Positions 4,476 through 63,500 of a DNA stretch of 64,000 bases are shown one piece after another (the stretch's first letter is position 1; the number at the start of each line of letters is the position of its first letter). The stretch comes from Symbiodinium sp. CCMP2592 (taxonomy: Eukaryota; Sar; Dinophyceae; Suessiales; Symbiodiniaceae). The position numbers were made by a program, and so were the translations under genes. The stretch spans positions 310,001 through 374,000 of the forward strand of contig CAJNDT010003524.1 in the NCBI GenBank assembly GCA_905221615.1. Reading direction: 5' to 3'. The notes under the pieces were generated by a model, which was given only the letters and a program-made list of their open reading frames with translations, was not told the DNA's origin and searched no databases.

Positions 4476-7400
4476 CTTGTCCAGTCTCTCCTGGACCTTC
4501 TTGCTCCTCTCTGCAACCTTGGAGAAGGCGGCCTGCAAGACAGAGCTGTATTCCTGCTTGTTGGAATGCTTCGGAATGAATAATTACAGGGTTTCGGGAT
4601 GCCATAATTTGGGGTATCGGGTTGTACACAACGCCTTCCTGCACAGGTGTTCAGAGGCACTCGCACACGAAAACCACTTGAGAGGTTCGTGCCTGAGCCT
4701 TGTTACGCTGGAAGGACCAAGCTCTACTTGGATCCTTATAGACTGTTTCTACAGTCATGGCCCAACGCGACGCAGACTCAGCGAAGAGCTGCAAGCATCA
4801 TAATTTGTGGTAGACGGGCTTAACCGATGCATCATCACCATCAACGTCTTGCAAGTAGCTTGTCCTTGATGCGGTCACAACCATCATCATCATCGTCATC
4901 ACCATCATCATCATGATCATCATGGTCATGACCCGCACTTTCAGCTCATTAAACAGGGTGTAAGCTCGTGAACACGAAGTCGACGAGAACCTGGAGGATG
5001 AGCATGATGTGGATGATGAGAGTACTTGCGATGATGATGATGGAGGTGATGGTGATGATGATGGTGATGATGATGACGACGACGGCAATAGCCATGATGG
5101 TGATGGTGATTTTGATGATGAAGATGCTAAAAATAACAATAAAAAGAATGAATGAGGATGGGGAGGAAGCGGAGGTTTTGGAGGCGGAGGAGAAGGCAGC
5201 TACTTGATAAGTAGAACCCTGTCGGGTGCAAGCCTTGATGGATGGCACCGGAGTGGACATGTTCCCTTGGATGGACCTGCCCGCAGCGCTACGCGGAAGG
5301 ACAAGTGCTGGGCTTCCAGACCTCATTATATTTCCTAAGGTGAGTCCGCAAAGCTCAAGACTTGGAGGTTTTGGGTTTCCGTTGGGCTGCGGGCTTAAAC
5401 ACATTGAGGTAGCTTGGACTGAAAAGTATCCTGCATGAGGCAGCTCTCCTGTGACGAGGCTGCGGGGCTGAAACTCGAACCGCCTCCATGAAGCCTTAGA
5501 CCCCGAATTTTCAGCCCTAAACCCTGCAACCCATCAGCCCCAACTCTGCAACCCCTCATCACTGCGAGCACTTCCGCAGTGCTCCGCACCCTGTCGTGGA
5601 TTTGATGGTGTTTTGCGCGAGGACGATGGCATCCCCCAGCTCAGCGCACTCCTCCGTCTCGCGGAGCTCTTAGGGTCCGTGCTTGGTGCTTGGGGTTGTG
5701 GGGTTTCTGGGTGCACTCGGGTGCACGAATATACATGGCTTTTTGAGCCCGGTCGGATGCAAGGCTTCGGACATGGGGATATGGCCGGAGATGAGCCAAT
5801 AGTCTTTGTCAGAGTCGGCCGGGTTCCCGAAATGGAAGTTACGTTGCAACTTACCATGCAGGTCCTTGAAGTGTATTTCAGATCCCTGAAATCATATCAG
5901 GAATCCAACACCGAATATGGGGAATATCCTTCAGCCCAACTGTCTTGCAAGATCTGGGCAGGATCCAGACGGACTAGAAGTACACCCTTACCCATACATT
6001 CCTGGCGAGTTCTGCGTAGCCAGGAGCCCTTCATGCAATCGTTGAGCACCTCTACGGTACACCAGTCTTGGCGTCACCTGCCCGAATCCCAAATTCTGTA
6101 TTTCAGAGACTGCAAACCCTTTAACTAACGGAAGAACCACCCTGAGATCCCAAAAACCTGCACCCAAGATCTCACCACCCTAAACTCCAAACCCTCGACC
6201 TCCAAACCGAAACCCAGAAATCCAAACCCTCGAAATCCAAACCAAAACCCTGAAATCTGAACCCTCGAACCTCAGAACCGAAAGCCTCAAAACCGAAGCC
6301 CTCAAAAAGGAACCCGCCCCAAACAAGTCTCAGTCTCCTCGTCCGTGGGTTTCTCCACGGCCTCCACCGGCTCGGCTAGCTTCTCGGCTTTGGCGACCTG
6401 AGACTTGAAGGTTCGTGCTTTTTACTCCGGCCTCCCAAAACCTTACCCTGGCACCCTGGCGCTAAACCGTAAGCCTTGAACCACAACCCGACGCCCGAAA
6501 ACCGAGCTACAAGTAAAGCCACCAGCAAACCTTTAGGCCCTAGCCCCCTGGACTCTCAACCCCTGATCTCAAATCGTAAAGCCTATAATCCTTGTCAGCC
6601 CCGAGCAACTACACAACGAAGTCTTGCCCACTTTGATGCCGTGAATCCGAAGCCGGTCCACCATATCACCAAAGCCACTGCGCCCTAAACCCTGAGTCTC
6701 GAACCACCAGTGACCGTAAGCCTGAATCCGGCCACCCAAACCACAAGAACCACAAACCCCTGAAAGCCAGCTTTGTCTAGGCCTTTAAATTACAAAACCC
6801 CCAATCGGTAAATCCCAAACTCTGAGACTCGAATGACCGAAAGCCACGAACCATACGCAAACCCAAAGACATAGTGCAGCACGAAAACACCAAGTCCTGC
6901 GAGCAGATTCTCACTACCCCCTTCTTTTTGTTGCAACAAGCGAAGCAAGATGACTCCGCAGACTTCACACCAATGCCAAAAACAAAACTTAAACCCTAAC
7001 CCGACAAACCCTGAGACCTTAAACCTCTTATTCCTTTCAGAAGCGCACCCTTCAAGGAACCCTCAACGGTACCCTCAAAGAGTTAAAGGAAATCCTTAAG
7101 GGAACCCTTACATGTACCTTGAAGGAAACCCTTAAAGGAAGAGAACGGCCAGGGCCCGAACCTCAGCCTCCGCCTTGTCGACGTTTCCCATCTCTTCCGC
7201 CAGGGCCTGAAGATCTTCAAGCTGTATAGGGTTAGGATTTCGGGTTTAGGGAGACCTGAAGATCTTATGGCTTTTTGTAATGGCCGTAATAGGAATTTCT
7301 GGGTTTTGATTTGGGGGATTATAGATCTCAGGGCTTTATGGGCCAGTCAACAAAGCTGATCTAGGGTTTTTTGGATTCAGGGGGTTAGGTTTTGCAAAAA

Positions 7401-10400
7401 GCATTTTGTAAGGGGCCTGAATAGAACCTGAATAAGGCTTTACGAAGGTTAGTCTAGAAGTCTCAATGACTGGAATGTGGCTTGAAGTTTAAGTAGGTCT
7501 CATTCTGCGCCTTAAACCCGACATAAACCCCCATAGTAGACCCTGAACCCTGAAAGCGGAGCCCTAAATCCCAAACGATAGACCCTGAACCTCTCAATCC
7601 CGAACCCTAAACCCAAATGCTGGACCTTGAACCTGAGCTTTGCAGCTTCTCCTTCCTGGTGCTTAAGGCGGAAGTCGGAGAGTGGGTCGGCTTTCGTGGT
7701 CCCTGTATTCCCTTCTAGGAATCCTTCTATTCCTTTCTCCACTCTTCTTTAAGCACTCTAAAGCCCCAAATCCCAATCACTAAACCCTACACCCCTAAAG
7801 CCCTAAACTCCCAAAGCACTAAAACCCTAAACCCTAATCCCGAAACTGAGCTTCTCAGCATCCGAGGGGCCTCCTTGCCCTTCAGCAGCTTGTCGCCGAA
7901 GGTGGAGGCCTGCAGAGCAGCCCCGTTGCGTTACATTGAGAGTTTGGGGTTTAGGGCTTTATAGAGGTTTAGGTGTGAGGGTTTAGGGTTTGGGGGTTTA
8001 AGGGTTTTGCGGTTTAGGGTTTAGGGTTTAGGGGTTTCGATGGGTTTGGGATTTTAGGGGTTCAAGGGTTTGGGGGCTTAGGGTTTAAGCTTATTAATTG
8101 ATACGGCCTCAGCTTTAGTAAGATGTGTTTAGGTTCACGTAAGGGGACCTACACGGCCCACAACGGTTTCTCTCAGGGTTTCGATGATAACTTGAACTAT
8201 CAGCATTCTTGTAATGCTTTTCTCCAGGCCTTGTATGTGTAGTGTGGAGTTGAGGTTTTGTAGGGTTTAGGGCTTCGGACTCTCGGTTTAGGAACGAGCG
8301 TCACCCGGTGCTTTCGTTCTTTCACAGCCTTCCACCGGATGCTCCTCAAAGCCGCTTAAGACCCATAAAAGCTAACAAGACAAGCTTCAGCCTGGTTCGT
8401 GTCGCTTGGATTTGGGGTTTGAGGTTTGAAGTCTTGGATTTCCTTATGATTCCCCCAAACTCTAGAACCTAAACCTTTGACTTGCTGCTAAGTCCCCGAA
8501 TCTGCAAGGTAAAGTCTGCCCTTCATCACAAATCCACCAAACCCGAGACCCTAAACCCTAAACCCCCTAAACATAGGGCGAAGTCTGCCCAAGGAGGCCT
8601 TCTTGTTCTTTGCAAGATCGTCGGCCGCGGCCTTTATTCGACCTTGATGGAGACTTTTCCGGGCTCAGGGTGCTTCAGCACACCGGGATGCTTTGGGCTT
8701 GAGGGTTTAGGCTTTAGGGCTGGGGTCATCTCGGAATGCTTTCGGGTTTAGCATCTCGGGCTTTAGGTTGTAAAGTTTTACACCTTGCACTTCGAGGTAA
8801 TATAGGGCCTTAATAATTAGAATAGGGTTTTGGGGCCCATTATATTATATTTTGTAGTAAGGAACCCCAATCAAAAGACTGTACGTACTTATTTAGGCCC
8901 CTATATTAGAAAACCTACAAGTTGCCTTACCGGTACGGCTTACCACGAAAAACCTTTTGAACTTGATCTATTCAACAAGTCCGACGAAACTCTCTCCAAC
9001 AGTTGAGGTCTATGAGGTTTAGAAGTGGCTGAAGGTTTAGGACTCTAGAAGCTGAATGCGCAAAACCACCAAACACCTCAAGTAAACAGACAGCAGAAAG
9101 CAATCGAAATGCACAGAACAGTGGCCCTAAACCTGAGAGAAACTCATGCCCGTCACAGATGATGCCGTTTCCGAACGCTCGACCGAGAACCCGGCGAACA
9201 GGAATAAAAAGCCCCAAGCCCGCCGTACTGCACCTGAAACTTCGAACCCAACACGCAACAACACAACGCATCAAATCCTCACGGCCTTGGCACTTGGCAC
9301 GAAGTAGCAGAGACATATAACCCAAAGTAGGCAGAGCAGACAAAAATCTCGACAGAGAACATCACAATGGCAAAAACTAAGCCCGAAGTAAGCCCCATTA
9401 CCCAAAACTTGAAACCCCCAACCCCTAAACCCTAAACCCTAAACTTTCAACCCCAAAGCCTGCCAAGAAAAGACGTACCCAATGGAGGCTCGGGCCCTGG
9501 AGTTTGCTCATGGCGCCTGCGGCCGCGGGGCCCTGGCACTGATTGGAGGTTTATGGATACTTATAAGTGGGGTGGGTTATAATGGTTTAGGGTTGCTTGA
9601 AGGGTTGTATAGGGTTTAGGGATTGGGGGAGTGATAAGTGGGGTTATAAGTCGGGTAACCATAATTACAACCCATGTTAGGGGACTTATAACCCCTCTTA
9701 TAGCTCAAGTGGGCTCTCTTGCTCTCAGGAAGGAAGGGCTTTAAAGGGAGGTTTGCAAGTGTTTACAAGGCTTAATGAGCTTTTTGTTTGGGCTCCAAAC
9801 TTCAGGTCTTTTTGAGAGTTTTGATGAGGTTAGAAATACAGGGTTTAGGGTGTAGCCTAGGGGATCAGGGTGGTTCATTTCTTTAGTTCCGGGTTCTGTA
9901 GGTTTAGTCCAAGCTCTGGAACAGGGACCCCTAAAGTTTCAGGCTCCTGAGAGGCTCCATGGCGCGTTGGGGGCTCGGTTCCCAGATATGCACCTGAATA
10001 CATACCAACCAGTGTTTGCCTGCCGTTCTATTTTTCAATATCAAAATGAATGGAGTTACACAAAAATGTGCTACTGCGATACAACTCAAGGTTGGTATAA
10101 TAGAAGTTGCAGAGCTTCGGTTGCTTCACGGCTGTTGTCGAAGAAGCTGCTCTGCAGGGCTTTATTTCTGATTGGAGAATGCAACATATCTGAAGGTTTG
10201 ATTCGCAGAGTTCTCCCGAAACCCTCGGGCCCGAATCCCTCTCAAGTCTCCAAAGACCTACTAGTTACAGTAACCGTCCGGCAGTCCATTGCTCAAATTT
10301 AGTGCCCGGACTTGAATTTTGCGTCGTGCAATCGCTCGTTGCTTGTCAGCCAGACATCTACCAGCTATTGAACTGCAAGTGTTGCAGCATCTCGCGATAC

Positions 10401-19400: not shown

Positions 19401-20318
19401 AAACCTGCAAAGCTTTTGACCATGAGGGGTCGTCAAGGGTTCCCTCAAGAGGTCTTTGAGGTTTATGTTAAGAGAACCCTTACAGAAACCCTCTAAAGGA
19501 ATAGGTTGAGGGCTTCAGGCTTAGAGATTCGGGTTGGCGTATCTGAAGGCTCAGAGCTTGAAGGTTCTGAGTTCTTACTTACTACTTAGGCTGTCTTGCT
19601 GATGATCTATCATGTGAAAGGTTGGGTTTTGAGTCAATCGATGTATTGGAAACCTGTACGTGTTGTACTCGAGTTGGAGACGCTGGTGTCCGCTTGCTGA
19701 AACAACAAAGAAGACGGCAGAGCCCCAACGAGAGAATCATGTGGGGCCTTGTAATTGGAATATGGTTTTGGGGTTATAATATCGCACAAAAATCCTAAAT
19801 AGTTAACAAGGGACCCTAAGGAGTAGAATTGTAATTGTTCGCTTCTATATTGCAGAACATACGCCTTGTCCTCAATACCCGGAAAGGCCAAACCCGAGCC
19901 CCCATTAACTCCCCAAGCCCTGCTACAGCTTCGCTGGGAAGCCCCGGTCGGCTTATCTGTTCGCGTTAAACAGCTAGATAGCTGCATACTGTGTTTTCTT
20001 AATCACATGCATACGAATGCATTGTTCATTTGGTTCGTTTATACGTTGACTTGCGTATTAGCCCGTTCATGTACATGAGGCTTCATTCGATTCGTTTATT
20101 CGCTGATTTGCATATTAGCTCATGTACATGACCCTAAGCCCTAAACTTCAAAACCCTAAACCCTAAACTTCAAAATCCAAAACCCTAAACCCTAAGCTCC
20201 TTTTCCGAACGCGGGTTGGCCGTCAAAACTCACAGGTTCCGACCGGCTTCGAGGCCAGGAGGGAGCGCGTCGCGTGGCCCGTGGCCAGAGCCACGGCCTT
20301 GTCGATGCTGAGCACGCC
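4476..20318 (-). CDS. Helical/coiled-coil-like protein in many short exons (array A)
   Basis: A string of short minus-strand islands with coding character, most opening after AG|G, is separated by telomere-like repeats. Exons fitted with frame and splice sites: 20234-20318 (GVLSIDKAVALATGHATRSL...), 19359-19389 (ESTKAISDCE), 13487-13531 (VTEEAIKEAMEKAGK), 7162-7206 (ALAEEMGNVDKAEAE), 5590-5651, 4476-4553 (FSKVAERSKKVQERLDK at its end). Approximate ones: 18560-18620, 18366-18405, 17468-17535, 16838-16902, 15695-15785, 15085-15148, 14290-14362, 13912-13965, 12975-13045, 9490-9540, 8580-8640, 7853-7920, 6325-6397. The peptides are rich in Ala, Lys, Glu and Val with heptad-like spacing and no membrane segment or cysteine pattern. 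I do not recognise a family; a structural or cytoskeletal coiled-coil role is inference. Similar islands in array B and the shared DAExPFLKGIE motif indicate a paralogue. Whether all islands belong to one transcript is unproven, because two unrelated genes lie within the span. Confidence 0.55.
4826..5170. repeat. Trinucleotide repeats in inverted arrangement
   Basis: Plus-strand CAT/CATCAC repeats (4826-4930) are followed, after about 65 bases, by GATGATG repeats (4996-5150). The two blocks are therefore roughly complementary and could pair. GGA-rich sequence follows to 5200. Frames through it are low-complexity and not credible genes. Confidence 0.75.
8801..8908. mobile_element. Inverted-repeat element, family B
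   Basis: TATAGGGCCTTAATAATTAG at the left end is matched by TTTAGGCCCCTATATTA at the right, with GGGTTTTGGGGCCCATTATA inside. About 108 bp and non-coding. The best copy of family B together with the one at 60214. Confidence 0.8.
9544..9712. mobile_element. Degenerate inverted-repeat element, family D
   Basis: Contains GGAGGTTTATGG and then TTATAAGTGGGGT, GTAACCATAATTACAACCC and ACTTATAACCCC in the order seen in intact family D copies, but expanded by TTTAGGG-like sequence near 9590. Confidence 0.55.
10358..11698 (-). CDS. LAGLIDADG homing-endonuclease-like protein
   Basis: An intronless 446-codon frame with two LAGLIDADG helices: YLSGVFDGDGC at residues 134-144 and YCAGFLDADGC at 259-269. 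Both keep the acidic residue that in this family binds the catalytic metal, so a monomeric two-repeat fold is expected. Residues 1-60 are basic and Ser/Thr-rich and could be an organelle presequence. Residues 78-100 and about 385-440 look helical or coiled (ENKLLRSELAEL; LENRQLLEYREMLQHL). Known LAGLIDADG proteins cut long DNA sites and spread introns or inteins; some have become RNA maturases. Proteins of this layout are familiar to me from dinoflagellate nuclear genomes. The gene lies in a repeat-free block (about 9.96-12.44 kb) between array A exons on the same strand, so it is nested in an intron or is an insertion. The plus-strand frame 10643-11422 is its shadow. Activity is not shown by sequence. 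Confidence 0.85.
   Translation of the reverse strand: MQPASLVSMFAAQGRALRLLSQAKIQHNLCHLGAVLIRGKLDSSAFNPLNKTAGQRTASTATCAAEQSFEQRAGTTSDETIDVLRRENKLLRSELAELRWPQLHSFQARGRHYPLPWHPPAKSSVALSKADLQYLSGVFDGDGCALGCASRSTCMLSMTQSYDHAEVLLLFQDSFGGSICSKRNSGTGLTKPTLQWQVYGAKARLAARDLSPHSSTKRSQLELIADWPNDPLQRIESDKKLRLLKTQDSAAEFRCSWGYCAGFLDADGCIWLSPTGSVFVQFSQKYPTVLEHIRNFMAEQAGVTAKTYQCNANLFTLRITKDSDSKRVLKCMLDAGLRRKAVQASLVVSSTHESVGHVREAFARCVGNQNFGKRLDEDGIARSVRITNLQMRVRYWKQKGQTEKAATVSKEIQVLQCKHRFLKAQLENRQLLEYREMLQHLQFNSW
11700..12440. other. Complex DNA upstream of the LAGLIDADG gene, no gene recognised
   Basis: High-complexity sequence without TTTAGGG repeats, continuous with the LAGLIDADG gene. A minus-strand frame at 11947-12294 (115 codons, Phe/Ser-rich) shows no family I know and may be upstream untranslated or decayed coding DNA. 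Confidence 0.4.
13402..13506. mobile_element. Family B element bracketed by a 13-bp direct repeat
   Basis: GCCTTCTCCATGG occurs at 13402-13414 and 13494-13506. Between them is family B sequence (GGGCCCCAAAACCCTATTCTAA...CGGCCCCTATATTA). The right copy of the repeat is the coding sequence for the end of the array A exon 13487-13531 (Ala-Met-Glu-Lys-Ala), so the element duplicated exon sequence on insertion. The exon ends at a good donor, AAA|GTAAGT, and the left copy now lies inside the intron. Confidence 0.7.
13579..13706. mobile_element. Inverted-repeat element, family H
   Basis: The ends CTTACCGTTGGTTAGTAGGG and CCCTACTAACCAAAGGTAAG are inverted copies, flanked by GTTCA on both sides, a likely target duplication. 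The second copy (53031) lacks the middle. The end sequence itself carries GTAAG, a ready-made splice donor. Confidence 0.75.
16020..16125. repeat. GACAGA/GAGA simple repeat
   Basis: Degenerate purine-rich repeats (ACAGACAGACAAACAGACAG, then GAGAGAGAGATAG) over about 150 bases including 15960-16020. No gene. Confidence 0.7.
16719..16834. mobile_element. Inverted-repeat element, family C
   Basis: CTTGGAGGATCATGGGACTC at the left is matched by the right end CTAGTTACCAAGTTCTATGATCC in reverse. The core TTATACGTGCCTTAATTGGGG matches other C copies. Right next to the array A exon at ~16840. Confidence 0.75.
18437..18549. mobile_element. Inverted-repeat element, family C
   Basis: A near-consensus copy. 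AGGGTCATGGGACTTAGTAA faces TTACTAAGTCCCATGATCCT; the core has TTATAAGTACC and GGGTTATAAGTATAGC. It lies in the intron between array A exons at 18.38 and 18.58 kb. Confidence 0.85.
20020..20131. repeat. Degenerate tandem duplication of about 57 bp
   Basis: TTCGTTTATACGTTGACTTG...TTCATGTACATGA (about 20034-20078) is repeated as TTCGTTTATTCGCTGATTTG...CTCATGTACATGA (20091-20131). Each unit ends in the palindrome TCATGTACATGA. No gene. Confidence 0.6.
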
Positions 20319-20350
20319 CTGCCTCGGGTTTAGGGTTAAGGGTTAATCCT

Positions 20351-20462
20351 ACTTGGAGGTTCATGGGTAGTCATAAGTGGGGTTATCAGTAGGGTAACCA
20401 TGATTATAACCCATATTAGGGGACTTATAACCCCACTTATAACTACCCATGAACCTCCAAGT
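20351..20462. mobile_element. Inverted-repeat element, family D
   Basis: A near-perfect palindromic element: ACTTGGAGGTTCATGGGTAG at the left and its complement ending CCTCCAAGT at the right, with GGGGTTATAAG and CTTATAACCCC inside. It lies just upstream of array A exon 20234-20318 on that strand. Confidence 0.9.
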
Positions 20463-20711: not shown

Positions 20712-22577
20712 CTACAAACTACTAGAAGAAATTAGACAGCTGACCGTAATTTGACCCAGATTCGAGCCCTGTTCAAACTGCTCCAGCTGATCCCCGAGCT
20801 TTTCGTGCAGCAGCTCCAGGACGCTGTAGTTGGCTTCCGCGACGATGCAATGAATACCCTTCTTCTTCCACTCCGTCAGGATGGATTGCAACATGGCGAT
20901 GGCTGAGTAATCGATCACCGGCACAGCACCCATCCCCAGGATCACATAGCGAATCGAACCTGTGCGGCCCTCCGCAAGCCGCATGCGCTCCACCTCGTCA
21001 CGAAACCACTCAGCGCTGGCAAAAACCAGGGGGCCACGAAACTCGAAGACCAAAACGCCGGGCACGGTTCTAGCTTCTGGCCACCTTTTCACGTCGTGCC
21101 ACTGGCCTTCCAAATGTGGCACGGCCCCCAGGGTAACAGCATGGGGAGTGCTAGCATCTGCCACCACTTGTGCAACGGCCACCAAAACCTGGGTTTGCGT
21201 TACGGAACTTGATAATACGGATCTCTGATACATAACATCGTCTCCTTGTTATGGTAACTCGTCCCCAAAACCCTAGACATCCGTAAACCCCCCAAACCCC
21301 TAGTGTGGCAACTTCAACTGAATTCCTTAACAAGAGCCTAGAAACGGAGAGGATGATCCCATACAAGGCCCCGGCGAGGATGGTACAGACAAAGCCCACC
21401 AGCCACACGATGAGGTCCTTGCGAAGGATTTCTCAAATCCGAACCCCCCTACCCTCAACCCTGAACCTCAAACCCTTGAAACCTAACCCCTGAATCCAAC
21501 AAAACCTTAGGATCTGTATTAAACAATAAGGGAAACAAAACCCTATCCCAGATCGACAGCTACTAAGCCCTTAACCGTAACCCAGAGCCGTTATAGATCC
21601 CTTTAAAAGGAACCCTTATAGACCCCTTTAAAAAAGCCCTTATAGATCCCTTTAACAGAAACGCTTATAGATCCTCCCTTTAAATCAAAGGGGTCCTTGC
21701 GAAAGATTCGAAAGGATCCTTCCGAGGACCGCCAAAGGTCCAGGGGCATTGCGAAGTCCATCAGCCCCTCCGCAGAAACCATGACCTGGGGTGAAGAGTT
21801 GGGGGGTTTGGGGCTTGGGGCTTTGGTAGAAACCATGACCTGGGGATAAGAGATTAGTTAAAGGGTCATGGGACTTAGAAACTAGGGTTATAGTTAGGGT
21901 AACTATACTTATCCCAATTGAGGTACTTAGAACCTTGCTTACTAAGTCCCATAATCCTCCAAGCTGGGGATAGCAGTTTAGGGCTCCGCGGTTTTAGGGT
22001 TTTGGGCTTTGGGGTTTTGAGCTTTAGGATCTAAGGTGTAGAAGAAACCATGACCTGGGGTGAAGAGTTTAGGGGTTTGGGGATTTAGGGTTTGGGGGTT
22101 GGGATGGTTGAGTGCTTGAGGGTTGTAGTGTGCAAGCGTTTAGGGCTTTCGGGTTTGACGATTTAAGGCTTTAGGGTTCGGGGTCTCCGGTGCAGGGGTG
22201 CCACTGTTAGGAAGGACGGGACAAAAAGAGCCTGCACCCTTCGCGAGCATTTGCGGCATCCCCTACAACAAAAAGTCAAAAGGATCCTTCAGATTGGCCG
22301 AGTCACGATGGCTGCCAGAGAGGCCTTCAGGGCTCAGAAACAGAGACAGTCCGAAACCTAAACCCCAAAAAAGAACAGTCTTGCGAAGTTCTTTCAGCCT
22401 TGTGTGCTAATAGGGGCTTTCATAGTTTTGACAAAGCTTTGAGGGTGTACTATACTATACTTAAGTTAAGGAACCCTAAGGAATAACAATTCGTAAGTAC
22501 TTGGGCCTCTATACTGGGACCCGGGGTCGCAAGCCAAAGGACCTTCTATACTGAACTCACACGCCTAGCAACAAAAA

Positions 22578-22610
<33 letters not shown>

Positions 22611-43462: not shown

Positions 43463-43886
43463 CTGCACAGCACCCCTTTAACGAAAGAGGTGGAAACCCA
43501 AACCACGACCTTACAAATGAAGGCTGTATAGGGGTTGGAGTTTAGGGATAAAGGTTGCGCAAAGCCTTCTATCAGAGCTTTATAAGAGACCTAAACGTGC
43601 TCTGTAAGGTAAGGGCTAAACAAAGTTTGTGTATGACCTTACACCCCAGACCCTGAAGGTCAAACGACCCGAATCTCGACCTCTGCGTGATAGGGATAGA
43701 ACCCTAAACCTAAACCACAATTACGTCCTAGACTACTAAAGCCTCATGGTCTACAGTTTAGGGTTCAGCCTCACGTTTATTTCTAAGAAATAGGAGCCGG
43801 GATTCTGATTCTCGGCTTTGGACATGATTCGGGAGTACATATAGGTCCCTTTATCTGTATGGGTTTGTAAGGATTTGGGGTGATAT

Positions 43887-45566: not shown

Positions 45567-45718
45567 GTCCAGGGGCTTAACTAGGATACCCAGTAACCTA
45601 AGAATAAAAAGGCCTCTCTTTTTGGTATTGGGTAACTTTATAAGGAACCTAGGACTACAAAAAGGGAATAAGGGCACTACTGGGCATCCTAGGCAAAGAC
45701 TCAAAAGCCGGGAATGAG

Positions 45719-45823: not shown

Positions 45824-45994
45824 AATCTCTTGCCTCCAAAGCATGTAAGCCCTATAGGACCCTTTTGAATCCCAAAAAAGAACTCTCTGAGTCTGTAAAA
45901 CTAAGTTCTATATGCATTCGGGTTTGGGCTGCTTGTTCGGGGTGCGTTGAGTGCCAGCCTCGGATTCCAGATGTGTGGCTTGTAGTTTTAGAGT

Positions 45995-46190
45995 TTAGGG
46001 GTTTAGGGTTTAGGGTTTAGGGGTTTAGGGTTTAGGGTTTAGGGTTTAGGGGTTTAGGGTTTAGGGTTTAGGGTTTAGGGGTTTAGGGTTTAGGGTTTAG
46101 GGTTTAGGGTTTAGGGTTTAGGGTTTAGGGTTTAGGGTTTAGGGTTTAGGGTTTAGGGTTTGGGGTTTAGGGTTTAGGGTTTAGGGCTTG
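45995..46190. repeat. Longest TTTAGGG array (about 27 units)
   Basis: TTTAGGG units with every few units GGTTTAGGGG variants up to 46085, then nearly perfect units to 46190. Too interrupted and too far from any end to be a chromosome terminus. Confidence 0.95.
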
Positions 46191-46199
46191 TAGCTTGGG

Positions 46200-48950: not shown

Positions 48951-49099
48951 ACCCCAGCCTAAACCCTAAACCCTCAAACCGGAACCCTAAAACCCGGGAC
49001 CCCCCAAACCCGAAACCCTAAAGTTTAAACCCTAAACCCTAAACCCTGAACCATAAACCCTGAATCCATAAACCCTAAACCTTAAACCCAAAACCGCGC

Positions 49100-52000
49100 G
49101 GCCAGAAGATGGCGGCTGCAGCTACGCACGCCGCCGCTTGGCAGAAGATGAGCCCGGCCTCGGGAGGGGTTCGTCAAAAGTGCGTTAAGGGGTTTAAAGT
49201 TTGGGGTTTACGGTTCGTCCGTGAATTAACCCTGAACTTAGGGATGCTTTGGTTTAGGGCTTAGTGTGTTTTACTTTAGGGTTTTGCGGCTTGCTTTTAG
49301 GGTTTCGGGTTTATGGCGGAGGGTTTAAGTTTTAGGGTCCTCGTTTATGGTTATTGAATCACGGGATGAGGGTTAGGGTGGTGTAAGGTCATCAGTAATC
49401 AGGGTGTTCTGGAGTTCTACAGAGTTTTGAGAGGCTTCTCTATGCGTCAGTATGCGGCTCGTTGGAGGTTTTGCTTTCTGTCCGATTCTACTGGGGCTCC
49501 CTGAAGGTCTAACAGAGTCCAACTTGCGGCTTTGGGGGTGCTGCAGAAACCATCGCACAGTTGTTGCATGGATACTTAACCCTACACCCTCAACCTTAAA
49601 CCCTAAACCCTGAACCTGAACCCCTAAACCCTAAAACCCTAAGCCGCCCCTAGCCAGCATTGCCCATGAAGATCTTGGGTTCACATCGTGTGGTTTAAAG
49701 CGACAAGTCACCTCAGAGACCGAATCCACAGTATGAGCCGTAAGCCCCAGAATCAAAAGCCTCTGAAATCCGAAAGTAACAGGCAGAAAGGATCACGATT
49801 ATCCTCCTCCCTTTCAGTTACAGTAGAAGGAATCCCGCACAAATTATCCTTATCCGATGTTTCAAGTTTCCGGGGCTCACTGTACAACGTCCGAAATATA
49901 TCTAAACAGCCAGAATGCAGGACCGTTGTGGATCATCAGCTGCGTTGCCAGGGCCGATAGCAGGCATGGGATTACGCTCCTTTGCGGAGGACTTTGCCAC
50001 GGCTTAGGGTTTACGATTGTGGGCTTGGAATCTGCGAAAAACTGCTCTTATAGTCTTTGCTTAGAGGTTTGGGATGTGAGGATTTAGGAGCTAAAGAAGT
50101 TTCAGGATTGAGGTCGCAGCGTTCAGGGAGTTTGAGTACAGCAGGGCCCCAGGCACCTGCAGTCTTCGTTTGAACAGGTTTTGTGAACTTTAGGGCCTTG
50201 GCTGAGAGCTTGGGTCTTGTCTTAGGGTGTAGAGTCAGTGTAGAGTTGTTGAAGCCCTCTTTTTCCATCTAACTTGCGTCAGAAGCTCAACCGGAACCTT
50301 TGCTCGTGGGGAGGGGATCTATGAATCCCTAAGTGCCCCTTTACAGGGATCTATAGGGTTCCTAACACGTTTAGGGCGCAGGATGTCGGCCAGGGTTAGG
50401 TGGGGTTATAAGCCCCCTAATGTGACATAATTTTGGTTACCCTACTTATAAGTACCCACGAACCTCCAAGCAGGGTCAGGGTTTAAGGCCGAATTTGTGA
50501 CCTGCGTTCACGAACGCAATATCGTGGCCCTTTTGAGTAGATAATTGCTGTGGCCCTGTTGAGTATATAATTGCTTTGCGAAGCTGTTCTACCATCAAAC
50601 GAAAAACTGCTCTTAAGGAACACGTTTACCAAATATTTAAGTACCGAATCCCAATCTTGGAACCCTCAAGGCGTATCTTCATGCCATCAGAATCGAACGC
50701 ACAGCACGAACCCCTGAACCCGACCCACTCCTACACCCTAAAACCTTTAACCCTTTCACACTTTGACCCTGAAACCCTAACCCTCATGTTACGATTGACC
50801 CTAAACCCTGAACCCTAAACCCTAAACCCTAAACCCTGAACCCTGAACCCCGAACCCTAAACCCTGAACCATAAACCCTGAACCCTAAATCCTAAACCCT
50901 AAACCCTAAATCCTAAACCCTGAACCCTAAACCCTGAACCCTAAACCCTGAACCCTAATTGCTCTAACGAACTGCAAAGGCTCTGCGCCACGATCTCACA
51001 TGAGGCAGCCATGCCTGCACAGTCCTCTCGGTGACGCTTGACAGCTAAGGCTTCATTACCGGTTTAGCTTTAAGGGGTTTGGGGTTACCGGTTTAGGTTT
51101 AAGGTTTTGGGGCATCATCCAACTCGGGTGAACTGAGACACTTGGAGGTTCATGGCTAATTATAAGTGTGGTTATAAGTCCCCTAATATGTGTTATAACT
51201 ATGTTTATCCTAATTATAACCCCACTTCTAACTACCCATGAACCTCCAAGCAGGGATTGGTTTGGGGTTTGGGATTCAGGCTTTTGAGCTCAGTTTGTTA
51301 AGCTAAAGATGTTGGATCCCGGATTCATATGCCTAAACCTCTTTTCATCCTCCAGGGGCTCGAAGAAGAGCACGTTGGCAGAGACCAGGGCCATCATTAG
51401 AACGCACGCCTAGCGGATTTAAGTGACTGGTGAAAGGATTATAGCTCTTAAGGTATTATAGGGGTTTAAGGTTTAGGGCTTTAGACTTGTAGAGTTTGGG
51501 TTTGACAGCTGAGGCTTTTCGGAGGCTTCCGGTTCATGGTTTGGTGCTCGGGTTGAGGCGGTGGAGACCATGCAACCCGAAGGTTCTGAAGATTGCAAGT
51601 CGACTGTTTCAGTGAAGCACCCGCGCGTTGGAATCGGAAGGATCTCCTGGGCAAATACCCAAACCTGAATCCTTGAACCCGAAACCCCAAACCCCATAAT
51701 CCTAAACTCTAAACTTTCCTAAACCCTAATCGCTCAACCCTAAGCCCTAAACCCGGAACCTGGAACCTGGCTTAAAGCTGGTTGGGAGCAGAAACGTCGA
51801 GGTGTAGAGCGTGGAGGGTCCACAGTAAACCGCAGAAAGTTGCAACATGGGATAAGGGGGTGTAGGGTTTTGGATTTATATAGGGCGGAGGATGAGAATG
51901 TTCGAACTTTCTGAACTCCAATTGCATTGTGTTGCACTGTATTTGGAGATGTAGAACCCATGAAGGTGGTGAGCTTATACTTTTAGGGTCGGAGGGCTTC

Positions 52001-55000
52001 GCAGCCAGATCAAAAAGTTCGCGCCGTGGCCAACGTGCAATCATCATGTTTGGCCAGGAAACTAGAGTCCCTAAACCCTCAGCTCTACCCTACACCCTAA
52101 ACTGCACCCTACACACTAAACCCGAAACCTGGAAAACCTGGAGCCCGAAACTATTGCGAACATAGCGCACGTCTATCCCTGAAGCAAGCCAGCTTAAGTT
52201 TGAGGGCAGATTTGCCGCTTGGAGCGGCTGTAGACTGGGCTCCGGCCCTTCACAATAAATCCCTCAAGAAGGCACGTTGTATATCGATCGGTACGTTCGT
52301 CACGAGGGACCTTCTAAAAGGGCGACGACACCCTGAAATCCGAGAAAGCCCGTGGAAGTCCTTCACAACCGACAAGCCCTACTTAGCAAATAAGGATCCA
52401 AGTACCTGAATCGGGGTTACACATATGTTCAACTCTACCTGAGTTACCCTGCTCACTAAGTCTCTAGATCTTAAGCCCTTACTTACAAAGTCCCTTGATC
52501 CTCAACCTGCAACCCACTGGGTTTGGCGCGGCCCTGCCTGGAGGAAGGACCCTGCGAGGTAACCCCAGAGGAACTGGGAGAAGAAAAAACCCAGCAGCCT
52601 CAGGGGTGAAGAAAAAAATGCATGGAAACACTGAAATGGAGAAGGCTCCAAGCAACAAGCAAACTATAATGTAGGCCCCGGTTACTAGTGCCGCCTACCT
52701 TTAAACAGGGAATAACAAGGATCCTAGCATTTGGTCCCTTCAAGAAGGGAGTCTACTAATCAGGGGCCTACAGTCAAAACGTCACCTTACTTACAACCCA
52801 AGTCGCCCGGCCCGACCCAAGAGGTACCCCAAAACCAGATGCCCCAAACTCTCAAGGAACATACGATCCAAACAACTGGCTGATGAGAGCCTAAACAGCT
52901 ATTGCACATCAACGGCAGTTAAGGGCTACAGTTTAGGATGTACGGCTTACTATCTTTGCTTACCGTTTCAGGCTTGGGGCCTGGTCCGGAGAGAAAACCA
53001 GGATCAGGATCCAACAAGTGCTGAAGTATCCTTTGGGTAGTAGGGAATGGAGGAACGGGGACATTCTTCCATTCCCTACTAACCAAAGGTAAGTGAAGTA
53101 TCGTGCTGCAAAGCCCGGTAGCAGGGAGATTGCACCAGCAGCGCCAAGAAGACTCAAAGCCCAGCGTGCCATCTGCAGCACACTGCCCAGCCGAAGCCTC
53201 GAAGGCAGGCCCTCAACCCCTCAAGCCAGACACCCCAAACCCAAAGCCCCCGATACCAAACCGTCAACCCCGCAAATCGTGAAGCTTTTAGATTTAGACG
53301 CCGCAAAGAAACTTGCAGCCCCGCATGTTGAGACCGAACCCTTCAACTTGAAACCCACCTCCTGCTCCTTTGGGAAAACCCTGCGGGCAACATGTCAAGT
53401 CCGTCTTCTTTAATGGCTTGGCCTGATATAGGGGCCTTAATCAATAAGTGTGTATACATACAGTAGTTTAAATATAGTGAGAACCTTTTGGTATAGAATA
53501 GTGAGATTATTTCTGCCTTATCTATGAGTGGGAACCCCTAAATAATTGCACAGTGTTACAGTGCGTATCTCCATATTAGATGCAGACAAGCCCCTAAACC
53601 CTAAACCCTAAACTCTAAACCGAAGCACAAATCCCCCCAGAGCCGAGGCCTCTCGATCAAGAAGGCGCCAATGCCACAGAGCGCACCAAACACGAGCCTT
53701 GGCTTAAGAGTTTCATGATATCGGGTTGGGGGGCTAGGATTCAGGGGTTTAGGGTTTATATGGGGGTTTAGGATTTAGGGCACCAGAGGTTTAGGGTTCA
53801 GGGTTTAGTGCTTTAGGGCTTAGGGTACCGCCCTCACGTTAACCGCCCTAAACCATGCAGTGGAAACTACACCGTCAACCCCTGAACTAAACCCTAAACC
53901 TGATAGACCCTGAGCCCTAAACCGTAAACCCCAAACAATGCTCAGGCACATGATCTCCGACGAATTAATTACCGACTCGCCAAAGGTCACCTGCGGCACA
54001 GTCTTGGGATTCACTTTAGGGCTCTAACTCTGTTTCTAACAAAGTTTGTGGGTTCTGGCTCGGTTTCTTACCAGTTAGTGGGTTCTGACTCTGTTTCTAA
54101 CAAGTTAGTGGGTTTCTAATGAGTTTGAATACAAGTTACCAGGTTTGCGAGGATTTAGCCCTTTGTGGTTTGCGGCGTTCGGAGCTTACTGCCTTCGGGC
54201 ATATCCCGGTGGGAAGTGTAAAGGTTTGGGGACTGCCGCCTGCAGCCTCTCCTGTGTCTCTTTGGGACTTAATCAAGGTCTCTGGCTGTCTCGAAGATAG
54301 GACGTGTGTGATTTAGGCTTCTGCTTTGAGTCTGCAGAATGCTGCAGGAATTGAAAGTTTACTGATTGAACAAGGTTCTTGCAGGATTCTTACCCTCAAA
54401 CCCTGGAACCCGAAGGGCTAAAGCCGAAAACTCTGTGCTTTATTTCGTGACTCCTTAGCATGTAACTCCACGCCTCTGCCAGGTAGCTGCTGTTCGCGTT
54501 GAAGGTAAAATAAGCGCCCATGACGCAACCTGATTTGCTTTTCAAGGGGTGCGCAGCCCGCTGATGCACTGCCTTTAAACCTGAAACCCTGAACCCCGAA
54601 AATCCAAAAACCCTAAACCCGAAGCCCTTTGCCTGGAAACCTTGGTGCCTCGAGACCCTCCAGAAACATCCGGGGAACCCTTAACCACCCTAAACCGCTA
54701 CATATGATACTAATCCGAATCCGTAGAATACCCCTCATAGCAACACTTACGTTACCCCGTATAGCACCCCATCATAGCAACCCTGCTGGCAGCCTGTTTC
54801 TTCGACAGCAACCAAGCTTTGGGGGGCCTGCTTGTGATTTTCCAATGCTCTTTTGTTTTGGGGTTTACGGGCTTTGGGATTCGGGGTTTAGGGGTTTAGG
54901 GGTGAGTCAACTTGGGCTTGCCGGCTCTGAGTTTAGGATGCAATGCCTACTATAGGGATCCAACAATTTTGGATTTCGGCTTTACAGATCTTTAGTGGAT

Positions 55001-58000
55001 ACATTAGGGTTCTTATGAGGGGCATACGGGTCTCTACGAGGGCTTCTACAAGGGTTCTTTCAGGAGGTTCATGAGACTTGGTAAGGTCATAGGTACCTTC
55101 ATTGGGGCTATCATCATATATAAATTATAAGTGTGGTAACCTTACTTATAACTCGAGCCACTAAGCCCCATGATCCTTTAAGTAAACCCTAAAACCCCTG
55201 CCCTTTGAAGTATGACCCTAGTTACTGAGCCCCATGATCCTTTAAGTAGACCGTCTGTCGCCTGGGAAAGGCCTGACCCGCTCTCCAGACCTAAACACCG
55301 GGCGCTAAACCTGAAGCGCTGACTGTGAGCTGAGCAGCTTTCCGTCAGAAGGAGGCAAAGAAGGTGTGGGTCCAAGATTCTTGAGAGGTCGCTGAGGTAG
55401 CTTTGACTCTCTCCGTCCGGGCAGCATTCCTCAAGCAAATCTCATGGAAGCTTCGTCTTACCAGTACACTGTGGTTCTGGCACCTGTAACTCATACTCTT
55501 ATATGGACTATAGGCAGAAGCTTCTCTCCGTAAGCAGACTTCCACACTAGGTGTTTCTGGGATGTGGGCTCACGGGACAGATATGTCACTCAACTTCTGT
55601 AACTCCAGCGCACTCCCCCACAGCAAGTTAAGCGCATCGGTCTCAGATCTCGGTGCTCTGGCTCCTCTATCGCAGCATCTTGACAGGGACGAGGAGGACT
55701 CCTCGTCCCTCAACGGTGCTACCACTCCCCACCCCAGTCGCCCGCGGGAGTTTGTTCTCCAACCTTTCTTTCGAGTCTCCCTAAGCCTGTCGAAGAGACA
55801 CACGGATCTTCGTGCCATCCGGGTAGGTCCACAGCTCCCGGAGCAGCGGGCTCTCCATGTGCTGGCTTTCTTCCTTGCGTGCCGCGGCTATCCTGCATGA
55901 CTCCTTGACTGCATTCATGCAGCCCCCAGCCTCGTGCGTTATACACCCCCAGAGTCAGCTCTAAACAACCCTAAAGCCCCAAAACTCCAAAACCCCGAAC
56001 CCTTAACTTGGGGATTCGGGTTCAGGGTTTGGGTGTAGGGTTCAGGGACCACGACAGCCCAGAACCCAGACGAAACCATAACATGACAATCGGGGTTTAT
56101 GGTTCAGGACGTGTCGACGTGAAAAAAACCGGCTTAGTGCACACCGTTGCTTAGTCCAAAACTGACGGCCTAGTTCCGGAGACCGATTGGCATACGGGAT
56201 CCGCAAATCCTGCAACCCTAAAGCTTTAAGGAATAAAAACTATGAGTATGAGCTCTTCACTTTTATCCCTGAACCCGGAAACCTGGAAGGCTGCACGCCG
56301 ACACACTTGCTACCAAACCCCTGAACACACATTTTAAGTAAGACTAGGGTATATTATGCAACAACCATAAGAGGATCCTGGACGAATAGTATTCATTAGT
56401 TACGAAATATTCAGACACCATGAAACCCTAAACCGTAAAAAACCTGAACTATGCCCTAAACCCTGCACACCCATATTGTGTTCGGCTGAGCCACAACCAT
56501 GGCCAAGCCAGCATAGCTGGCGAGGAGGCCCCAGATCCTGCAGCTTAAACTTTGGGGGTTCCTTTAAGGGTTCAAAAAAAATATATATATACATTTTTTT
56601 TCTGTAGAAATGTACTAATTATATATGCTGGCCTCTGCAAAGGGCTTAGGGTTTAGGGCTTAGATCTTAAACGTAGGTTTAAGCTTTAGGGTTCAGTCAG
56701 GGCCTAGTTAAGCCCAGATTTGGGTACTCTGGCTGGGTTCGCGGTGTAGGTCGTAGGTTTAGGGTTTAGGGTATAGGGTTTTGGGTTCAGGGCTTAGGGT
56801 TTAGGGTTAAGGGTTTAGGGCTTAGGGCTTAGGGTTTAGGGTTTAGGGTTTAGGGTTTAGGGTATAGGGTTTTGGCTTCAGGGCTTAGGGCTTAGGGTTT
56901 AGGGTTTAGGGCTTAGGGCTTAGGGCTTAGGGTTTAGGGTTTAGGGTCTAGGGAGGGTGTAGGGCCCAGTTGAGCTTGCTTTATAATACTCGGGTTCGTG
57001 AAACGGCTCTCTACCGGGTTCAGAAGCCCTGGAGGGGATAAAACTAGCTAGTCTTCACTTGTGTCAGCTATCAGCACTATACTCTGGTTCAGGGTTTAGG
57101 GTTTAGGGCAGTGCACCGCAACAGCAGAGTAAAACCCTCCATACTAAACCCTAGAACCCTAAAACCTAGAAGTTCAGCCAAGCAGCAGGGCAAGGCCAAA
57201 AAACGACGCGCGCCAGCTCCAGTAATGCGCGCCGAGCCCTCCGACAAGAGGAGCCAAGGCAATGCCCACGAAAGCCATCATCCTCAAATCCATGGAGTGT
57301 ATGGCTCCCAGAGCTCGAATCGATACTTCCACCTCTGGACAGAACCTAAGACCCTAAGACTCTTTCAGACTTGAAGACCAGTCCAACCCCTCCCACACCC
57401 TCAACACTCCAGATAACCTTGGCCTCCAGTCACCTTAGTACAGTCACGACTTTGAGGACTTAACTTGGGATGACCTCTAAGGGACATCCGAAAAAAACCC
57501 TGAACCCTAGAGCCCCTAAACTCTTAAACTCTGCAGCCCTAAACCATGAGCCCAAAGGCCCGAGGCCCCAAAAGAAACCATGAAGCAAGCAGCTGCAAAG
57601 CCGCGACGACTACGAAACGCTCGGATGGCTCAGCGAAGTAGTCGCGGGCCATGGCAAAGATGACCTGATCGTGGGATTTAGAGTTCGGGCATTAGGACAT
57701 GGGGTTCAGCCATTATGGTGTAAGGCTCCGGATAGGGTCTTCGTCCTACCACTACTGCTACTGCTGCTGCTGCAAATCATGCGACAGTCATTGTTAAGGA
57801 TTTAGGCTTCGGGTTACCTAGTTGGAGGTTCATGAGTAGTTGTAAGTGGATTAGGGTATCCATAATTATAAGCCATATAAGGGGACTTATGACCCCACTT
57901 ATAATTACCCATGAAAATCCAAGTAGAGTCCTAGAAGATCCTAGAAGATGGCACAAACACCGCATGAAACCAGGCGGCATCTAGAACAACCAAGCCTGCG

Positions 58001-61000
58001 AAACCAGACCCTGCCGGAAGGTTCTTTCCTTCGGAACTCTGAAACAGATGATATTGATAAAAAGCTATCTCCATATCTACATTCAGACCCTTGCATCTTC
58101 ATATTTGTGAATAGTGTGTGGCATGCTTGTGCCATCTGTTCTGTACTGATTTGGTACAACATGCGAAACCCCTAAACACCAAACCCTAAACCCTAGACCC
58201 TAACGAAAAAACAACGACAAGCCGCTGGCTCCAGGGATTCTCCCATGCCCTGCAGCAGCCGCGAAGCGATGAACCACTCAATCTTGCGGGCACCTCAGTT
58301 TGGAAGCGTCTAAGCGGGGTCTGAGAGACAGTGGCAGCTCATCCTTGCAGCTTCAATCATCTTCATCGTCAACGCCATCGCAGCCATCATCAACCTCACC
58401 ACCAACATGGTGATCCACCATCATGCTTACCAGCATGTTCGTCACGACTGCAACAGCTGCACTGGGAGAAAGCTGGCATTCAGGTGCCTTAATATAATAG
58501 CCCGAATAATTGCCCATACTATTTTGGTGACTCCTTGCTATAATCATCATATAATGTACACCAAAACCCTACTCCAATCATTACGCCCCTTGTATTGCAG
58601 TCCTGTACGACACTCTGTAGCCTTCCTTGGCAAAGGCCCAGTTCGCGACAACCCGTTGAGACCTGAAAGCCCTAGATTAAACTTGTCCGGGGTGCAGCCG
58701 CAGCAGAAGCTTGCCACGCTAAGCAAAGTCAGGCAGACGAGCCTTGTGGCGGTTTGGGGCTGAAGGTTGAACCGTCTAGTAGGTGTCGGCGTCAACAGTC
58801 CCCGAAAGAATTCATAAGGAGAGCTCTATGTTAAACAAGAAGGAAATCAAACTATCTCAGACAGATACCTAGTCTAGGGCTTGAGGGTTTGAGTTCGCCT
58901 TCTAGGATTGATAGAGCCCTAATGGTTTTAGGGCTTAGGCTTCATGATTCAAGGTTTGTGTCTTCACACTTCACGTGCTTCGGGGTCGGGGATGTCTCTG
59001 ACCCTAACCCTGAATCCTGAACCTAAACCGCCTAAACCCTAGGCTAGGCTGGGCGGAAAATGTTGGAACAGTGCCTGGGATCACCCCGCAGCTCCGCAAA
59101 ACCTGCAAAGCCCCTTTTCAGGGCTACTCTTAACGGGGTCTACAAGGATTACATGAGGGTGACCATATGGGTTCTATGATGTAGGAACCCTAAGAATCAG
59201 AACAGGGTTTTGGAGTATATTGTGGTATAGTTGTAGACCGGAACCGGAACAGTATTGCTCGTTATTCAGGCCCTTATACTAATCATGGCAGTGAAGCGAG
59301 AAACTCATGCAATCTAGCATACCAAGCTTCATATTCTTGCGCACCAGAAGCTCTGCAACACCCCGTACATGCTAAACGGTCGAAGTGTACAAACGTTAGT
59401 AACAACGATGGTGGAAGTAGCAATGACCACAGAATTGGCGCTACATCGTTTACTCGGATGGCAAAATGTCGATACTATGCATGTGCTGTATAATCACAGA
59501 GACCTCTACTGGCAAGATGACTCTTATAATACCCAAATGAGGTGCCCCTAGATTTGAAAGCTAAACTTAAGCCTCCATGCACAGCCGCTCAAAGCCCTGT
59601 AAGACCCTGCAGTGCATAATATGCACACTTGCCCTAATTATGAGCCCCAGCCTTCAACAAATCATGTGAAAACCTAAACAGCTTAGCAAGTTCTTACAAC
59701 AACATAGAACACTCCCCTAAAACTCTCCTAAACCCTAAAACCCCAAAACCCTCCCAAACCCTAAACCCTCAAAACCCTCCCAAATCCTACATAAACCCTT
59801 TTGGAAGCCAGGGCTCAGCACGGGCCTCCGGCCGATTCGATCGGACAGGCCAGCGGTGGCCATGCCAAAGACGGCCTCCGGTTTAGGGTTTGTTTTTAGG
59901 GTTTAAGACTTATAGGGGTTTAAGGGTTAGGGGTTTAGGGTTAGGGGGTTTAGGGTTGATTTTGGTGTTAAGCGGTTTAGGGGCAGGGCTCTCTCTGTTT
60001 TCTGCAGACTCGTGGAAACAAGGGCTCTGCGCAAGCCGCCGACAGTCCAACTCATCGATTTTTTGGTTCCGGCTTGCCCTCGCTAGGCCGACAGCGATGA
60101 TATGGGAGTTTCCGAACATAGGGGACCCTATAATATAGTACCCTAAGCAGGAAGGAACCCCATTTGTAAGGACCCCAAAATAAGGTACCTCTAATTATCG
60201 GAAACTCCCATATACTGCAGTGGCCTTAATAATTAGAATAGCGTTTTGGGGCCCAGTATACTATATTTATAATAAGGAACCCCCAAAACAGTATTTGTAT
60301 TTATTTAGGCCGCTAAAGTAAATCCTGAACTACCCATAATGAGGAATATACCATAATTCTCATAGTCTAAGGTCAGTAAGGTAATGCAGAATGTATATCA
60401 TCAACCGTATGGCCAGACTTGTCCCGTCATGACGAGGCTGGGTTCGCGTCTGCATAAACCTCACTCGCAGATGGAACCCTTAAAGGAACCCCAAAAAATG
60501 GAACCTTAAAGGAACCTTAAAACGGAAAGGAACCCTAAAGGAACCCCGAAAAGGAACCCTTAAAGGAGCCCGAAAAGGAACCCTAAAAGGAACCCTAAAG
60601 CGCCTTGATGCATAAGTTCATCTGCACAGTGCCGCTCATGAGGCTCTCGGAGCCCAGAAGGTCAACCTCACAGGGGCAGTTTAGGGTTCAGGGCCATAGA
60701 GCTTTAGAGGTTTAGGGTTTAGGGTTTAGGGCCATAAAGCTGTTGAGGTTCAGAGGTTTAGGGTTTAGGGGTTATGAACTAGGTTTAGGATTCATAGGGC
60801 TCCCAGGCTTGTAGAGCTTACACGGTTTGCAGGGCTCACAGGGTTTAGGGCCCATAGGGCTCACCCGGCTGGTCGGGCTAATAGGGTCGGTCCCAAGGAC
60901 TGTATGGGAGTTTCCGAAAATAGGGGACCCTAATATAGTACCCTAAGTAGTGGGATCCTGATTATAAGGACCCAAATAAACGGTACCCCTAATTTTCGGA

Positions 61001-63434: not shown

Positions 63435-63500
63435 AGCCTTACTGAGCTTCGCCAGGACGTCCCCTTCGTAGAGGCACCGGGCGACATCCCACGACCAAGG
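63435..63500 (-). CDS. Exon of an upstream gene
   Basis: The minus strand reads SWDVARCLYEGDVLAKLSKAL (split here as SWDVARCLYEG and DVLAKLSKAL), bounded by CCCTAAA repeats on the left and TTTAGGG on the right. Unknown family; probably the same gene as the membrane exon at 62.4 kb. Confidence 0.4.

Follow-up and report, generated by a model that had tools for sequence, protein, structure and literature searches.

Telomere-like repeats show a moderate orientation bias around the exons of a dinoflagellate genome

We analyzed a window of 64 kb from contig C3524 of Symbiodinium sp. CCMP2592 (the assembly has 1.098 Gb in 5,383 contigs), where predicted exons lie among many telomere-like repeats. 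In plus-strand notation, F stands for TTTAGGG and R for CCCTAAA. The original prediction held that, on the gene strand, introns open with F and close with R. Every exon would then read R-exon-F along the plus strand, no matter on which strand its gene lies. We find that the orientation bias around exons is real, genome-wide, and moderate: the change of orientation is seen across the genome at exon-like spacing and near the predicted exon ends of the window, but it is weaker than had been stated. The exons and the main arrays are the following.

7871..7909, minus strand: exon; R arrays at 7793-7831, F arrays at 7950-8059; highest flank complementarity among 92 predicted minus exons
20234..20322, minus strand: exon; R arrays at 20139-20189, F at 20329; coding score 16.0
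20712-21248, minus strand: STAS exon, Pfam E 1.6e-16
24206-24850, minus strand: sulfate-permease exon, Pfam E 2.7e-29; with the STAS exon, it gives database-supported coding over 20712..24850
32662..32727, minus strand: exon; R at 32505 (150 nt away), F at 32791-32928
39684..39767, minus strand: exon from the original prediction, limits by eye; perfect (AACCCTA)8 array to the left at 39586-39641, no array within 200 nt to the right; the coding model favours the plus strand here
40537..40572, minus strand: exon of 36 nt, by eye; R arrays at 40435-40507, F at 40679
43427..43462, minus strand: exon of 36 nt; R at 43394, F at 43541
49095..49158, minus strand: exon; R arrays to the left at 48964-49079, F arrays to the right at 49253-49337
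53621..53697, minus strand: exon, coding score 15.0; R array at 53536-53612, F array at 53748-53818; donor, by eye, GTTTAGAGTTTAGGG
56471..56537, minus strand: exon; R to the left at 56426-56460, long F array to the right at 56652-56946
57579..57664, minus strand: exon; R arrays to the left at 57514-57543, none within 200 nt to the right
59809..59875, minus strand: exon, ...ag|GCCGTCTTTGG, peptide AVFGMATAGLSDRIGRRPVL, presumably transporter-like, with no database match; R array to the left at 59715-59765, F array to the right at 59882-59982
45987..46186, plus strand: F array of 28 copies with 94% matches, one of the two longest F arrays of the window
56756-56953: the other of the two longest F arrays
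50798..50958, plus strand: R array of 23 copies, ACCCTAA-type

Exact heptamers are about equally numerous in the two orientations (TTTAGGG 167, CCCTAAA 162) and amount to about 5 per kb, as against 199 heptamers in 297.7 kb for 87 partly overlapping loci elsewhere in the genome. The window also has 21 R-F pairs at gaps of 110-140 nt, where about 5 are expected from the genome mean. Hence, it is rich in telomere-like repeats.

Seventeen exons had been put forward as clear cases. When each side is judged by its closest exact heptamer, up to 200 nt away, and some exon limits are set by eye, 29 of their 34 sides carry the claimed type, one carries the wrong type and four are empty, in a list that was picked by hand. 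The wrong side belongs to the exon at 23.1 kb, where F stands to the left as well as to the right. Of the 10 sides of the five exons named as exceptions, 3 are right, 2 wrong, and 5 empty. At a score of at least 6, our coding model places 12 of the 17 on the minus strand and 4, those at 7.2, 8.6, 39.7, and 63.45 kb, on the plus strand; the one at 9.5 kb is left uncalled. We also read 11 exons by hand, choosing their borders by eye for AG and for GT or GC; so chosen, they have 10 GT donors and one GC donor, with G after the AG in 8 of 11. Their donors include GTTTAGAG (53.6 kb), GTTTAGGC (51.3 kb), and GTAGGG. Their peptides look like pieces of transporter and coiled-coil proteins, a likeness with no search match, the exons themselves being read from frame and junctions. 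The joined translations of the exons between 49 and 63 kb had no Pfam match, with the 54.5-kb exon placed after the 53.7-kb one, i.e., out of gene order, and their coiled-coil piece gave only a sub-threshold match (E 0.12). The transporter-like exons joined in gene order, minus the 63.45-kb exon, matched no PDB chain.

Each of the arrangements R-gap-F and F-gap-R is identical to its reverse complement. Hence, no gene prediction is needed to test the claim by counts across the entire genome, and it predicts that R-F pairs outnumber F-R pairs at exon-like gaps. This is what we found. At gaps of 110-140 nt, the assembly has 90,837 R-F and 40,900 F-R pairs (ratio 2.22), and at 400-430 nt it has 100,736 and 63,711 (ratio 1.58), so that the effect is not limited to a single narrow spacing. 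At gaps of 20-50 nt, which are too small to hold most exons, the order is inverted (17,554 vs 23,885, ratio 0.73). Such a change of sign with gap size is the expected outcome of exons of about 40-120 nt. These figures are pairs, and one interval can yield several of them from arrays. Among the matches listed on contig C1, we therefore also counted distinct intervals, which gave 59 vs 34 at 110-140 nt (ratio 1.74, p 0.012), 63 vs 39 at 400-430 nt (ratio 1.62, p 0.022), and 36 vs 49 at 20-50 nt (ratio 0.73, p 0.19). Two control words, obtained by reading the counted words backward, were not neutral: GGGATTT gave R-F/F-R ratios of 1.06, 1.86, and 1.39 at 20-50, 110-140, and 400-430 nt, and AGGGGTC gave 1.47 at 110-140 nt. 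The intron repeats of the window contain both words, around 7.6 kb and 43.2 kb. Since they are also polar, the rule may reach G-rich intron repeats more broadly. A generic G-run control, TCCCCAG/CTGGGGA, has little power since its counts (131 vs 126 at 110-140 nt, ratio 1.04) are at the level of the random expectation of about 127. No other word tested comes near the counts of the telomere type.

For the exon-centred tests, exons were called with a coding model whose training set, taken from other loci of the same genome, consisted of exons with Pfam matches and of long open frames. The model scored 5 held-out frames of the window as positive in frame. Its calls are skewed to the minus strand here (26 minus vs 6 plus at a score of at least 15). 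We used 93 minus-strand exons with a score of at least 8, of which the 26 with a score of at least 15 form the best set. Array clusters within 150 nt of the 93 exons are distributed as R-left 25, F-left 13, R-right 12, and F-right 21. The claimed orientation thus accounts for 46 of 71 (65%), a value that none of 400 circular shifts equaled. The share of three quarters of exon sides given by the original prediction is an overestimate that stems from hand-picked exons. The bias persists in a weaker form within 300 nt (71/125, 57%, p 0.045) and within 500 nt (116/204, p 0.02). It is not significant for the 26 best exons, either within 150 nt (9/15, p 0.25) or within 300 nt (11/25, p 0.70), and the plus-strand calls of the window show no orientation bias (12/26, p 0.70).

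Nucleotide coverage, allowing one mismatch in F-like and R-like words, places the effect close to the exons. After the 93 predicted exons, F-like coverage is 26.6% in the first 50 nt and 23.5% in the second, for a window value of 13.8%, while R-like coverage in the first 50 nt is 8.6% vs 11.8% in the window. Before the exons, R-like coverage is 18.0% and then 18.6% in the next 50 nt. The downstream excess is back to background at 150-200 nt, with a later rise at 300-400 nt (18.9% vs 10.7%). In the window, the effect is strongest up to about 100-150 nt from the predicted ends of exons. Without the splice-site rule of the coding model (104 segments), F covers 23.1% and R 8.9% after exons, and R covers 19.5% and F 14.7% before them. 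The bootstrap over these segments makes the downstream difference firm (13.9 points, with none of 4,000 resamples at or below zero), and the upstream difference has the right sign without being significant (4.9 points, P 0.10). At the level of words, TTTAGG reaches 7.3 per kb at 3-25 nt after exons (15 cases) vs 3.3 overall, and AG is slightly low at 3-25 nt before them (55.7 vs 69.7 per kb). Under the splice-site rule, GGG and CCC are also polar in the window (31.6 vs 14.0 per kb). The repeats are thus enriched on a preferred side of predicted splice sites, as polar intronic splicing enhancers are, firmly downstream and more weakly upstream.

What lies between the repeats points in the same direction at short range. 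In the window, gaps of 80-250 nt contain a minus-strand coding-like segment in 9 of 19 cases when they are R-F, and in 2/12 F-R, 1/13 F-F, and 2/13 R-R cases, i.e., 5/38 for the other classes pooled (Fisher p 0.007). Elsewhere in the genome, we scored 15 R-F heads, one per interval, taken from the 28 with sequence among 100 R-F pairs listed on contig C1 (one was trimmed to 51 nt). Their mean coding score is 6.5, vs 3.9-4.5 for the short F-R, F-F, and R-R gaps of the window and loci. In the loci alone, short R-F gaps score 5.0 (n 10), just above the 4.5 of F-R gaps (n 6). For gaps of at least 250 nt, the mean score is 4.6-5.8 in all classes, and the contrast is confined to short gaps.

Outside the window, 85 loci around conserved exons (of myosins, dyneins, and ion channels; L001 and L002 excluded) are poor in telomere-like repeats. 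Their 332 predicted sense exons have the claimed sign, with a small effect: 2.8 points upstream (P 0.013) and 1.1 points downstream (P 0.19). For the 255 exons below 250 nt, the values are 3.8 (P 0.007) and 2.3 points (P 0.05). The small size of these effects in repeat-poor loci suggests that the rule matters chiefly where repeats are abundant.

Several observations weigh against an orientation rule tied to splice sites. The exon calls depend on a small coding model and not on transcripts. The raw counts of the loci within 500 nt do not follow the rule: around 43 short exons, F occurs 14 times upstream and 3 downstream and R 11 upstream and 9 downstream, and around 42 long exons, F occurs 11 times upstream and 9 downstream and R 3 upstream and 12 downstream, in counts where the loci overlap and a few arrays dominate. 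The 288 antisense calls of the loci gave -1.4 points upstream and 3.0 points downstream (P 0.015). In the window, the upstream R excess taken alone is not significant in nucleotide coverage at any of four thresholds (P 0.10-0.19), and the plus-strand control calls show an upstream difference of 9.1 points at threshold 6 (P 0.022), without significance at thresholds 8-12. F-like sequence is not depleted before predicted acceptors (13.6% vs 13.8%), so that an avoidance of decoys is not visible there. The GGG/CCC polarity shrinks without the splice-site rule (19.2 vs 13.8 per kb) and is absent in the loci (13.9 vs 13.4). Finally, at gaps of 250-600 nt, coding-like exons occur in 6/10 R-F, 6/10 R-R, 4/6 F-F, and 7/17 F-R gaps of the window, and the content of R-F gaps thus exceeds only that of F-R gaps, not that of R-R or F-F.

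How could the orientation of a repeat matter to an exon? The explanation we favour, to which we give slightly less than an even chance, is that telomere-like repeats are abundant passengers of introns that splicing filters or uses according to their orientation. An F array just downstream of an exon would be compatible or even helpful, since it brings G-runs and GTTTAG-type donor sequence and may sometimes be the donor itself. An R array just upstream would also be compatible, being C-rich and holding CTAAAC words as possible branch sites; R arrays have no AG and hence offer no decoy acceptor. An F array before an exon, on the other hand, would offer many TTTAG|G decoys, i.e., a T-run followed by AG|G, a common acceptor form here. 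We infer this decoy effect, which is not seen as a depletion of F at that place. A link to splicing is likely, and splicing rather than an insertion process would then be the cause of the bias. A bolder version of this idea is that the telomere repeat forms a polar, genome-wide code marking exons in RNA, with UUUAGGG after and CCCUAAA before tens of thousands of exons, read by factors that could be telomere-repeat or G-run binding proteins. The repeats would then replace weak donor and pyrimidine signals, and exons would be recognised as units. We regard this version as unlikely.

The same layout could have arisen by insertion. Introns, or their ends, would derive from introner-like insertions with telomere-like terminal inverted repeats (TTTAGGG...CCCTAAA), now decayed. 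The F...R layout matches such terminal inverted repeats, and inverted-repeat introners are reported in dinoflagellates in the available text of PMC7789003, PMC11453091, and PMC10522408. A masked self-BLAST at E 1e-8, limited to the 64-kb window, gave about 110-bp fold-backs, tandem arrays, and short repeats, but no family as long as an intron, and within a predicted intron the ends match no better than chance. We hold an origin of this kind to be unlikely. The match between ends also bears on the mechanism of the original prediction, in which the opening F and the closing R of an intron pair in RNA and bring the splice sites close. F and R are indeed complementary, and end pairing is described, in the portions available, for the introners of Amoebophrya (PMC7789003) and the nonconventional introns of euglenids (PMC4770533). 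For 60 predicted introns, we compared the opening 120 nt with the closing 120 nt, leaving out introns outside 250-6000 nt and exons of at least 1000 nt. The complementarity within introns (28.9) is no higher than that between introns (29.75, p 0.72), and it is near that of 5' ends with other 5' ends (29.3). A stricter exon set, with 42 predicted introns, gave 27.1 vs 28.6 (p 0.86). The flanks of the same exon are the more complementary ones, and if they paired, the exon would be looped out. Moreover, for a human intron with G- and C-rich elements, a mutant expected to abolish pairing was spliced like the wild type (excerpt of PMC2481429). We therefore rejected intron-end pairing as the candidate mechanism and consider it very unlikely.

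The inverted matching across exons is a result in itself. It amounts to 26.2 vs 23.2 for 92 minus exons (p 0.0004), 24.6 vs 22.5 for 60 stricter ones (p 0.019), and 24.7 vs 21.8 for 38 plus-strand calls, one of which is inside a palindromic tandem array (p 0.023). Random positions show no significant inverted matching (p 0.22), and exon flanks compared in the direct sense have no excess (p 0.57). Part of the matching may come from arrays that co-occur on both sides of the same exon. Since the matching spans exons and not introns, the exon is the likelier unit of organisation. Such a pattern also suits an origin at the level of DNA, where R-exon-F would be a telomere-capped linear piece, left when telomeres were added or breaks repaired, and would have nothing to do with splicing. 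The genome-wide excess of F-R over R-F at 20-50 nt (23,885 vs 17,554) is what head-to-head joining would leave. Head-to-head contacts are nevertheless uncommon in the window (3 F-R vs 4 R-F pairs at 0-50 nt), and the stopping of arrays at exons is left unexplained, which makes this origin quite unlikely, if slightly less so than end pairing. Scars of telomere fusion were set aside because the window has no surplus of F-R contacts at up to 50 nt, though the genome as a whole has one at 20-50 nt. Lastly, the bias could be an artefact of the choice of exons or of the splice-site rule. The exons of the original prediction follow the rule on 29 of 30 filled sides, more cleanly than the set called without selection (46/71), and F holds both AG and GT, so that the rule can pull exon boundaries onto it. 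The genome-wide pair counts, however, need no exon calls, and the pattern survives without the splice-site rule. We therefore consider an artefact highly improbable.

The case for the CTAAAC words, which the original prediction saw as potential branch sites, is weak. Their density is mildly raised before predicted acceptors (3.9 per kb at 25-50 nt and 5.2 at 50-100 nt, for a strand mean of 2.9), but it is 2.0 per kb at 3-25 nt before acceptors and 3.9 at 3-25 nt after exons, without a clear branch-site peak. Two other approaches to splice signals were abandoned. The counting of acceptor words (GCAGG and longer) gave opposite results on the two strands of the window, in our opinion because G-rich words probably track local G-richness. 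Deriving a splice-site consensus from exons with Pfam matches produced noise, because a Pfam match does not end where its exon ends.

Our limited search of the open-access literature found no description of telomere-like repeats oriented relative to splice sites. Dinoflagellate introners were reportedly treated by Roy et al. 2023. Several known systems share some of the traits. The repeats resemble mammalian intronic splicing enhancers in placing G-runs and C-runs within introns; in intron 4 of human LCAT, G-rich and C-rich elements jointly enhance splicing with no need for pairing, according to the available part of PMC2481429. Both LCAT elements, as described there, are upstream of a weak polypyrimidine tract, whereas the repeats studied here lie at opposite ends of introns, in opposite orientation, and with a putative role. 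The introners of Amoebophrya (PMC7789003) and Suessiales (PMC10522408), as far as the accessible text goes, also have inverted repeats inside introns. Those of Amoebophrya form families with inverted repeats of 8-20 nt and direct repeats of 3-5 nt (same portion of PMC7789003), unlike our 64 kb, where there is no intron family and the ends are unmatched within predicted introns. Interstitial telomeric sequences are likewise telomere-type repeats away from chromosome ends, and the portions available of PMC6410037 and PMC7215372 hold no mention that we found of their orientation relative to splice sites. In the nonconventional introns of euglenids, complementary intron ends are proposed to matter and RNA structure is said to join them (excerpt of PMC4770533), whereas our test of matched ends was negative. 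The available text of two further papers places our genome in context: dinoflagellate nuclear genomes use GC and GA besides GT donors, with AG|G acceptors (PMC11453091), and Effrenium voratum similarly has long genes with introns near 1 kb (PMC11114475). In the window, coding signal that is mostly on the minus strand, tiny exons, a sulfate-permease gene, and TTTAGGG repeats of the plant type are also what one would look for in a dinoflagellate.

Such genomes have to define tiny exons within kilobase introns with weak splice signals. If orientation does mark the side of an exon, this would be a simple, testable rule that ties telomere-type repeats to splicing and could aid gene prediction. If an insertion process is the cause instead, the bias would still record the growth of these introns.

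The window contains other repeats. A second type, AAGGAACCCTTTAAAGG-like, occurs at 7083-7140, 21591-21674, 41642-41747, and 60473-60600, and a related stretch near 43.2 kb contains GACCCCT, the reverse complement of the control word with the genome-wide R-F/F-R ratio of 1.47. About ten related fold-back (hairpin) repeats of about 110 bp are found at 9626-9705, 16720-16826, 18443-18549, 20351-20461, 21852-21963, 25650-25763, 36197-36307, 42922-43027, 51140-51250, and 57811-57923. Three of these copies are listed as inverted repeats with arms of 39-49 nt that are 84-95% complementary. Several copies have a predicted or hand-read exon no more than about 150 nt away, and the one at 20351-20461 is in the intron directly upstream of exon 20234..20322. 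A tandem array at 44664-45497 has ten units of 82 bp that are 96% alike, each making long inverted repeats.

Beyond the repeats and short exons, ARAGORN calls a single tRNA in the window, a selenocysteine tRNA (anticodon TCA) at 37955-38027 on the plus strand; no Rfam family reaches its gathering score in the window, the position of this call included. An open frame of 458 amino acids at 10358-11734 on the minus strand has a LAGLIDADG-like domain (E 2.2e-6) and a relative with 71% identical DNA on contig C1635. At 1927-3566 on the minus strand, beside the intron-rich genes, two overlapping long open frames encode pentatricopeptide repeats and are perhaps a single gene with few introns.

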